A stretch of DNA of 64,000 nt from contig NZ_CP010429.1 of assembly GCF_000974425.1 (NCBI RefSeq), positions 310,001 to 374,000 on the forward strand. The letters run 5' to 3'. Origin of the DNA: Spirosoma radiotolerans. GTDB taxonomy: Bacteria; Bacteroidota; Bacteroidia; Cytophagales; Spirosomataceae. Position 1 is the stretch's first letter. Each line of letters starts with the position of its first letter. Positions 8,599 to 9,184 of this stretch are shown here, in pieces. The notes beneath the pieces were generated by a model. The model saw nothing but the letters and a program-made list of their open reading frames with translations, was not told where the DNA came from and ran no database searches. The position numbers and the translations under genes are program-made.

Positions 8599-8628
8599 TT
8601 GACAAGCGCTGAAAATAAGCTACCTTTG
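8599..8628 (+). promoter_or_regulatory. Bacteroidota sigma-A promoter for the tRNA pair
   Basis: TTG at 8599-8601 and TACCTTTG at 8621-8628 are separated by exactly 19 bp, the Bacteroidota consensus. The tRNA-Gly gene starts 37 bp downstream of the -7 box. Confidence 0.8.
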
Positions 8629-8665: not shown

Positions 8666-8741
8666 GCGAAAGTAGCTCAGCTGGTAGAGCGCGACCTTGC
8701 CAAGGTCGAGGTCGCGGGTTCGAACCCCGTCTTTCGCTCCA
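8666..8741 (+). tRNA. tRNA-Gly (GCC)
   Basis: 76 nt with encoded CCA. The acceptor GCGAAAG pairs with CTTTCGC, the D arm starts GCTC, the anticodon stem CGACC/GGTCG encloses loop TTGCCAA (anticodon GCC), and the T arm contains GGTTCGAACC. It is followed by a strong intrinsic terminator and then by tRNA-Leu. Confidence 0.95.
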
Positions 8742-8748
8742 CAAAAAG

Positions 8749-8771
8749 GCACCGACCCCGGTGCTTTTTTT
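8749..8771 (+). terminator. Rho-independent terminator after tRNA-Gly
   Basis: Stem GCACCG/CGGTGC (8749-8754 with 8759-8764) and loop ACCC, followed by a run of seven T. It lies between tRNA-Gly and tRNA-Leu, so it may partly uncouple them. Confidence 0.85.
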
Positions 8772-8805: not shown

Positions 8806-9135
8806 GCCGGGATGGTGGAATTGGTAGACACGCCGGACTTAAAGATTTGAGTGCGCGAATGGAAACGTTCGCAGTAGAACCGCTTAAATTCGGGGAAACC
8901 TTATCAAGTGTAACTTGATTGGCAATCCCGAGCCAAGCCCGTTAGAGAAATCTGACGTGGAAGGTGTAGAGACTTAACAGGCGGCACCTACTTCCTTGCC
9001 ATTGGCAGGATATGGTGAAGAGAAAGTCCAGACCACAAATCATTGCAATTGGCAATGAGCAGCGAAAGCTGTAGTTGGTACGAAAATCCTGTGGGCCTCA
9101 AGCCCGTGCGGGTTCGACTCCCGCTCCTGGTACCA
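8806..9135 (+). tRNA. tRNA-Leu (UAA) interrupted by a group I intron
   Basis: Exons 8806-8840 (35 nt) and 9083-9135 (53 nt) join to an 88-nt tRNA-Leu with a long variable arm (GGGC/GCCC), T loop TTCGACT, discriminator A and encoded CCA. The acceptor GCCGGGA pairs with TCCTGGT using two G-U pairs. After splicing the anticodon loop is CTTAAAA, giving anticodon TAA, with the intron inserted between positions 34 and 35. The anticodon stem CCGGA/TCCTG has one C-U mismatch at 28-42, a small oddity. A sense-strand terminator follows at 9140. Confidence 0.93.
8841..9082 (+). ncRNA. Group I self-splicing intron in tRNA-Leu(UAA)
   Basis: The 242-nt intron has every group I hallmark I can test by eye. 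The 5' exon ACTT (8837-8840) pairs with internal guide GAGT (8849-8852), leaving the U-G wobble at the splice site. P10 forms from GATTT (8844-8848) with AAATC of the 3' exon (9084-9088). The core has P (AAATTCGGGGAAACC, 8886-8900), Q (AATCCCGAGCCAAGCCC, 8924-8940), R (around GTAGAGACTTAACAG, 8966-8980) and S (AAGAGAAAGTCC, 9018-9029). P7 is GACTT (8971-8975) with AAGTC (9024-9028). A P9 hairpin has a GAAA loop (about 9058-9071), and the last intron base is G. The core resembles the cyanobacterial tRNA-Leu intron as I remember it. No homing-endonuclease frame is present. Confidence 0.92.
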
Positions 9136-9139
9136 AGAG

Positions 9140-9184
9140 AACCTCTGATTGTCTGAAATGCAGATGATTAGAGGTTTTTCTTTT
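9140..9184 (+). terminator. Terminator after tRNA-Leu
   Basis: A 16-bp hairpin (9140-9155 with 9161-9176, core AACCTCT/AGAGGTT with two G-U pairs), then TTTTTCTTTTT. Confidence 0.85.

Follow-up and report, generated by a model that had tools for sequence, protein, structure and literature searches.

The tRNA-Leu(UAA) Gene and Its Intron

Positions 8806-9135 of the window (the whole 64,000-nt stretch of DNA that was analyzed) hold a tRNA-Leu(UAA) gene of 88 nt after splicing, interrupted between U34 and A35 by an intron of 242 nt, as determined by ARAGORN with introns allowed. In its usual mode without introns the same program did not list the gene, showing that an essential tRNA gene can escape a standard tRNA search. 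The general Rfam group I model, RF00028, which was the sole model used to class the intron, matched positions 8830-9049 with 53.9 bits (cut-off 50; E 6.6e-11). An earlier note, made from the sequence alone, had placed a group I intron at this site and proposed a search with the Rfam covariance model; ARAGORN and RF00028 bore out the placement, with every coordinate right. IC3 is the subgroup label of the tRNA introns of Anabaena and Azoarcus.

The gene lies 64 bases downstream of tRNA-Gly(GCC), and the positions of the features are collected in Table 1. Between the two tRNA genes, a GC-rich hairpin followed by a T run (8749-8771) looks by eye like a + strand terminator; the pattern scan reported it on the - strand only. 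Upstream of tRNA-Gly, at 8599-8628, is a TTG ... TAnnTTTG motif, with a spacing that we take to be that of Bacteroidota promoters.

Table 1. Features of the tRNA-Leu(UAA) locus, in window positions; percentages of cells paired refer to the alignment of 44 introns.
Feature	Position	Strand	Basis
tRNA-Gly(GCC), syntenic upstream neighbor in the genus	8666..8741	+	ARAGORN; genus locus comparison
5' exon of tRNA-Leu(UAA), 35 nt, last base U34	8806..8840	+	ARAGORN with introns; identity to congeners
P1, in which exon 8837-8840 pairs with the guide 8849-8852 inside the intron; U.G pair at the 5' splice site	8837..8852	+	Read from sequence
Group I intron, 242 nt, without HNH ORF, terminal G 9082	8841..9082	+	RF00028; ARAGORN boundaries; empty sites at the same locus; reading frames
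P10 strand UUU, partner AAA 9083-9085 of the 3' exon	8846..8848	+	Read from sequence
P2 hairpin, 7 pairs, GAAA loop	8855..8872	+	Drawn fold; 7/7 pairs change on both sides
P3 5' strand, partner 8979-8984	8880..8885	+	100% of cells paired; 5/6 pairs change on both sides
P4 (8889-8894/8927-8932), P5 inside	8889..8932	+	Drawn fold; covariation
P6 region hairpin	8938..8960	+	Drawn fold; 70.9% of cells paired
P7 5' strand GACTT, partner 9024-9028 AAGTC	8971..8975	+	100% of cells paired
P3 3' strand	8979..8984	+	Drawn fold; covariation
P8	8985..9017	+	Outer 4 pairs, 100% of cells paired
P7 3' strand	9024..9028	+	Drawn fold; covariation
P9.0 (9033-9035/9076-9078), P9 and P9b hairpins inside	9033..9078	+	Drawn fold; covariation
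3' exon of tRNA-Leu(UAA), 53 nt, CCA encoded	9083..9135	+	ARAGORN with introns
Terminator-like hairpin and T run, 3' of tRNA-Leu	9137..9179	+	Pattern scan only

Ribozyme Fold and Covariation

The helix P1 consists of the pairs A8837-U8852, C8838-G8851, U8839-A8850 and U8840.G8849, and the hand-drawn helices P2, P3, P4, P5, P7, P8, P9, and P9.0 contain zero mismatches in the window copy. The folding z-score of the intron is -5.14, and none of 200 shuffles folded equally low. All of the elements named in the earlier note, namely P1 with its U-G pair, P10, the core helices, P7 as GACTT/AAGTC and the terminal G, are present, and covariation was assessed over 44 Leu(UAA) homologues that span several phyla (an alignment from which L104, identical to L148, was left out). 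Standard pairs occupy 87.6% of the 2599 cells of this alignment, vs. a mean of 67.5% for shuffled controls and at most 46.5% for slid structures; 54 of the 65 pairs change on both sides, and no shuffle in 500 equaled any of the five covariation measures.

Both helices of the P3/P7 pseudoknot are paired in every one of the 44 introns, with P7 nearly constant (one of its five pairs changed on both sides, four invariant). Helices in the variable parts are paired less often, at 76.5% for P5, 70.9% for the P6 region, 72.0 and 61.1% for the inner parts of P8 and 76.2% for P9.0, as is expected from a plain MAFFT alignment. Taken together, these results make it practically certain that the element is a group I intron.

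The Only tRNA-Leu(UAA) Gene Found and Its Presumed Splicing

The host genome (7.03 Mb, one contig, 99.99% complete) contains one RF00028 match and 40 matches to the tRNA model RF00005, 38 of them over the cut-off. No second tRNA-Leu(UAA), the finding by which the earlier note would have had the interrupted copy count as a pseudogene, occurs among these matches: the other tRNA-Leu genes over the cut-off carry the anticodons CAA, UAG, CAG, and GAG, and the two weak RF00005 matches yield no tRNA with ARAGORN. With these anticodons and established decoding rules, UUA is read by the 8806-9135 gene alone, and, as the genome search turned up no further tRNA-Leu(UAA), this gene must splice. UUA is in use, with 158 codons spread over 24 of the 28 mechanically called ORFs of at least 250 codons in the window.

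Over its first 85 nt the spliced tRNA matches exactly the intronless genes of five congeners (G008, G010, G019, G027, and G034). A C-U mismatch in the anticodon stem, which had been singled out as an oddity of this gene, is shared by all 27 intronless genes of the genus that were read and is thus unrelated to the intron.

A dead intron within an interrupted tRNA pseudogene would be a most improbable explanation, given that the gene is the only tRNA-Leu(UAA) found in a nearly complete genome, that its exons and the ribozyme core are intact and that UUA codons are in use. The locus very likely represents an intact, functional group I intron of the anticodon-loop type, housed in the one gene for tRNA-Leu(UAA) that the host was found to have, and splicing of the intron in the cell is itself almost certain on these grounds. 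In the reaction as we envisage it, the precursor would pair exon ACUU in P1, a guanosine bound at P7 would attack after U34, P10 would align the 3' exon, and the exons would join to give the 88-nt tRNA-Leu(UAA). The intron would probably carry this out by itself, without the help of a protein. Another tRNA group I intron, that of tRNA-Arg(CCU) in Bartonella, reportedly splices in vivo as well as in vitro (PMC7717549).

Presence and Absence in the Genus, Family, and Phylum

Comparison of the tRNA-Gly/tRNA-Leu locus over 36 genomes of the genus showed the Leu intron in 7 and an empty site in 27, the remaining 2 (G025 and G028) being incomplete genomes that showed neither state. Group I matches as such occur in 12 of the 36 genomes and number 17 altogether. 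In a tree built on rpoB from 44 genomes, with 32 belonging to the genus, the 7 carriers require at least six changes among those 32; outside the genus this tree holds intron carriers only, so that gain and loss cannot be weighed against each other there. The nearest genome by rpoB (G016, 89%) is without the Leu intron, and three genomes (G000, G022, and G030) are single carriers among relatives with empty sites. A single clade for the introns of the genus was rejected on the intron tree (AU test, p 0.011; L104 was entered by hand in this tree, as in the tree used for HNH changes and in the 76-row tree below), and the kinship of the Leu introns runs across genera. Intermittent presence with empty sites and an intron tree unlike the host tree are thus both observed.

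Beyond the genus, group I matches in any gene were found in at least 43 of the 222 family genomes, representing 17 of 36 genera, in at least 29 of 395 genomes sampled over the phylum, and in 12 of 39 genomes drawn over Cyanobacteria; the family and phylum figures are lower bounds because of stricter search filters. The phylum figure counts matches in any gene since the host site was resolved for only 14 of the 27 loci entered from that draw (L243-L269). One genome of the same family (G194) and a Cytophagales MAG (L148) have identical introns.

Wider Kin and the Relation to Cyanobacterial Introns

tRNA-Leu(UAA) introns are textbook examples of ancient bacterial introns, passed on to plastids, and the earlier note had regarded this insertion site as classically cyanobacterial and plastid. 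This view proved too narrow, as the hosts resolved for Leu(UAA) introns at 34/35 include, besides Cyanobacteria, Alpha- and Gammaproteobacteria, Acidobacteriota, and Bacteroidota. A scan of named genome contigs with a pattern of the ribozyme core returned at least 118 stretches, and the 80 of these that were listed include stretches from Alpha- and Gammaproteobacteria, Acidobacteriota, Patescibacteria, Planctomycetota, the actinobacterium Microbacterium, Cyanobacteria, and Bacteroidota. The host tRNA site was assigned for 154 of 199 loci by means of a looser version of the core pattern (the stricter one failed on 114 loci), the 45 without an assigned host including the loci of Patescibacteria and Microbacterium checked by title. 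Five tRNA sites in several phyla account for the 154: 69 in Leu(UAA) at 34/35, 32 in CAU tRNAs at 36/37, 21 in Arg(CCU) at 36/37, 20 in CAU tRNAs at 33/34 and 12 in Arg(UCU) at 34/35; some of these may be chance exon pairings, chiefly the low-scoring or very long ones (L143, L153, L157, L217, and L250).

In a tree of 133 introns, which excludes 21 non-Leu introns of more than 330 nt and whose cyanobacterial rows had been picked by the core pattern, the window copy belongs to a 21-member clade composed of Leu introns from its own phylum (support 98/87), and the cyanobacterial Leu introns form a separate clade without it (98/98). Alphaproteobacterial and other bacterial introns of tRNA-Leu(UAA) and tRNA-Arg(CCU) have the same core as the window copy, those of Arg(CCU) differing in being inserted at 36/37 instead of 34/35, and in this tree they group with the window's clade apart from Cyanobacteria (98/92), a grouping that is not firm once more cyanobacteria are added. 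The added cyanobacterial sample was less biased (7 of 13 matches tested are Leu introns, and two earlier ones were re-found), and in the resulting tree of 76 Leu introns, which is without L259 because of its long branch, the 17 cyanobacterial introns make up one clade that excludes the window copy (100/99). The deep branch order of this tree is not settled and its bootstrap did not converge. The family of the window's host does not form a single clade in the best 76-row tree, and a single clade is not rejected (AU p 0.44).

In the 133-row tree, several Leu introns of the phylum fall outside the window's clade, both from other families (L252; L202; L256, L260, and L261; L259) and from the window's own family (L100). 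At least three changes are forced by supported branches, which suggests that the Leu intron was acquired more than once in the phylum.

In other respects the Anabaena-type introns of cyanobacterial tRNA-Leu(UAA) resemble the window copy closely, having the same gene, the same site after U34 and the same helices in the rows compared, and they differ in belonging to a well-supported clade of their own and in their compactness. The 17 cyanobacterial introns measure 219-312 nt, which leaves no room for an HNH ORF (for 7 of them the finder looked for short introns only), whereas relatives of the window copy carry such an ORF in P1.

We regard the window intron as a typical and well-built member of a familiar class, found in a host with few reports. 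A 2014 review names Cyanobacteria and alpha- and beta-proteobacteria (PMC4033280), and the tRNAscan-SE 2.0 paper counts 36 genomes whose fMet or Ile2 tRNAs contain such introns (PMC8450103). Within the open-licence literature searched, titles and opening lines of abstracts showed no group I intron in a tRNA of Bacteroidota.

An HNH Endonuclease ORF in the P1 Loop

Of the 22 Leu introns that could be resolved in the family, eight, measuring 728-745 nt, house an HNH-like ORF in the P1 loop, where it lies after the 5' splice site and ahead of the guide. The frame is open over ~170-190 codons in six of them, shifted in L044 and cut short by an early stop in L228. A search of 222 genomes of the family for the HNH protein matched nine, eight of them through these intron ORFs and the ninth (G005) through a weak match located elsewhere than in the intron (E 1e-10); the same search found no homologue anywhere in the host genome of the window, and the reading frames of the window copy's 242 nt hold no HNH ORF. 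The Pfam family HNH_3 matched the ORF of L043 with 23.7 bits, just below the cut-off of 24.8 (E 3.7e-5), and that of L236 gave no Pfam family match. All 21 pairs among seven ORFs showed pN values of 0.13-0.30 vs. pS values of 0.70-0.91, and with pN below pS throughout, selection is maintaining the protein.

The edges of the insert pair into a long extension of P1 in all eight ORF-bearing introns, as judged by pairing the first 30 nt of each intron with the 40 nt before its guide and comparing with the mean of 300 mononucleotide shuffles; the shuffles that paired equally low numbered 0 in five introns, 6 in two and 10 in L043. The HNH ORF extends beyond this helix into the ribozyme core, and the 3' part of an ORF housed in a lengthened P1 would then encode protein, P1 extension helix, and part of the core at once. 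One ORF-less Leu intron (L235) has kept the edges of the P1 extension, as seen by eye, and likely represents a halfway form between the ORF-bearing and the short introns.

Presence of the HNH ORF on the intron tree requires at least eight changes for its eight carriers, a count by which loss of the ORF and gain of the ORF are indistinguishable. An open frame at the position of the ORF tail was seen in 11 of the 14 ORF-less introns of the clade (the three that failed perhaps because the pattern picked the wrong frame) and in 26 of 47 Leu introns outside it. The corresponding frame relic of the window copy, KDLSARMETFAVEPLKFGETLSSVT, was considered as proof of a lost ORF and set aside as weak, being a frame that is common outside the clade too. 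On balance we lean toward the window copy having lost the ORF rather than never having had it.

Phage and Viral Relatives of the HNH Protein

Homologues of the intron HNH protein were found in 201 phage records, 84 of which cover at least 80% of its length. We compared 19 phage loci, chosen for variety from 60 of the 201 matching records, and counted a tRNA as beside the HNH gene when it was one of the two flanking tRNAs, at 0 to 203 bases on the side counted. A tRNA-Leu flanks the HNH gene in 16 of the 19 loci (anticodon UAA in 9 and UAG in 7, one of the latter with UAA opposite); the 3 loci without a Leu neighbor constitute the T5 hegA group. Leu(UAA) and Leu(UAG) together make up 21 of the 121 tRNAs in these loci. 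Many of the 19 are near relatives and fall by eye into ~10 groups, 9 of which have Leu beside the HNH gene. The chance of such adjacency is ~1e-4, a product of local values multiplied by hand with one locus for each of the 9 groups, which excludes the T5 group and is rough owing to the short stretches.

A second viral collection gave 38 HNH loci, of which 25 contain a tRNA and 13 have no tRNA found. A tRNA-Leu of any anticodon flanks the HNH gene in 14 of the 25 and is missing beside it in the other 11; when clustered by hand, 11 of the 16 viral-contig clusters with a tRNA have a Leu neighbor. Phage HNH homing endonucleases such as T5 hegA (TflIV) are 35-46% identical to the intron HNH protein among 10 proteins aligned, and they are free-standing, whereas the HNH of the family is encoded in the intron. 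No group I intron reached the gathering score in the 7 of the 19 phage loci that were scanned. The possibility of a phage copy of the window intron itself was also considered and dropped, a DNA query of the phage collection giving no match at E 1e-5.

The flanking of HNH genes by tRNA-Leu in phages suggests an enzyme family tied to tRNA-Leu genes, one that an intron at tRNA-Leu(UAA) would have captured, and we infer that the transfer ran from phage to intron. One viral-labeled contig (L370 1-1949) ends in an HNH-bearing tRNA-Leu(UAA) intron followed by the tRNA 3' exon (RF00028, 52.8 bits), and 176 bases past the tRNA lies an ORF for an integrase of phage type (Phage_integrase, 2e-20). The tRNA may be the attachment site of an integrated element, one that could bring the intron along.

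Other viral loci showed individual features. On the - strand of one viral contig (L402 1869-2044) there is a group I match of 57.6 bits, adjoined on the other strand by a partial HNH homologue, and one phage HNH homologue (L364) has no long open frame at the match and may be broken. A ROOL RNA (L377 2573-3192) and a skipping-rope RNA (L372 2055-2124) are located near HNH genes in viral contigs.

Origin and Probable Mobility of the Intron Lineage

Cyanobacterial transfer or ancient retention had been put forward as the choice to be made, and neither half of it fits well, as the cyanobacterial introns form a clade of their own and the intron comes and goes within the genus. Recent transfer of the intron, or of the entire tRNA locus, from Cyanobacteria would explain why introns there share the gene, the site and a similar core, and is nonetheless very improbable: the 17 sampled cyanobacterial Leu introns form their strongly supported clade without the window copy, and the exons and neighborhood are native, the spliced tRNA matching intronless congeners over 85 nt. 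A deep cyanobacterial origin may hold, a sister relation to Cyanobacteria not being rejected (AU p 0.19 and 0.39). Vertical descent of an ancient intron within the genus, through repeated loss and without any movement, accords with the occurrence of the Leu intron in many genera of the family, and losses alone could account for the patchiness. We consider it unlikely, since a single clade of the genus introns is rejected (p-AU 0.011), G000, G022, and G030 stand isolated among empty-site relatives, and eight of the nine genomes with an HNH match have conserved HNH ORFs inside the intron.

Spread by homing is the explanation that we favor, and movement of the intron lineage through its HNH endonuclease is quite likely on the sequence evidence. 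The homing enzyme would be the HNH endonuclease of the P1 loop, with tRNA-Leu genes as its target, and the window copy would descend from a mobile intron lineage that this enzyme has spread in the family. Lacking an HNH ORF, the window copy could now be inherited or lost and would not home by itself. We give roughly even chances to the joint reading in which the Leu(UAA) introns are mobile by way of a captured phage endonuclease that homes to tRNA-Leu, with the window copy as a stripped descendant. If it is true, a classic "ancient" tRNA intron is driven by an enzyme from phage tRNA clusters. What would surprise a specialist is the wider pattern of a presumed homing tRNA-Leu intron with an HNH ORF in its P1 loop whose phage kin adjoin tRNA-Leu. 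The occurrence of endonuclease-bearing copies, endonuclease-free copies and empty sites in close relatives, together with free-standing kin of the enzyme next to tRNA-Leu in phages, makes the spread of tRNA introns between bacteria directly testable.

Other tRNA Introns in Related Genomes

Further group I introns occur in the same genus and family, in CAU tRNAs at 33/34 (initiator-like) and at 36/37 and in tRNA-Arg(UCU) at 34/35 (L032-L036, L038, L039, L041, L045, L047, and others). An intron at 33/34 of a CAU tRNA from another family of the phylum (L258) contains a PD-(D/E)XK ORF (PDDEXK_5, 5e-50; PDB 2ost, 7e-59), and we liken it to the I-Ssp6803I type, a mobile intron of tRNA-fMet with an endonuclease of its own. 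The eight Leu ORFs of the family are of the HNH kind instead. A different, cysteine-rich ORF is found in introns at 36/37 of CAU tRNAs (L088, L090, L094, L102, L103, L189, and L214); the one scanned (L102) had no Pfam match, and the ORF looks like another HNH type. In one genome of the genus or family (G031), three tRNA genes each contain a group I intron.
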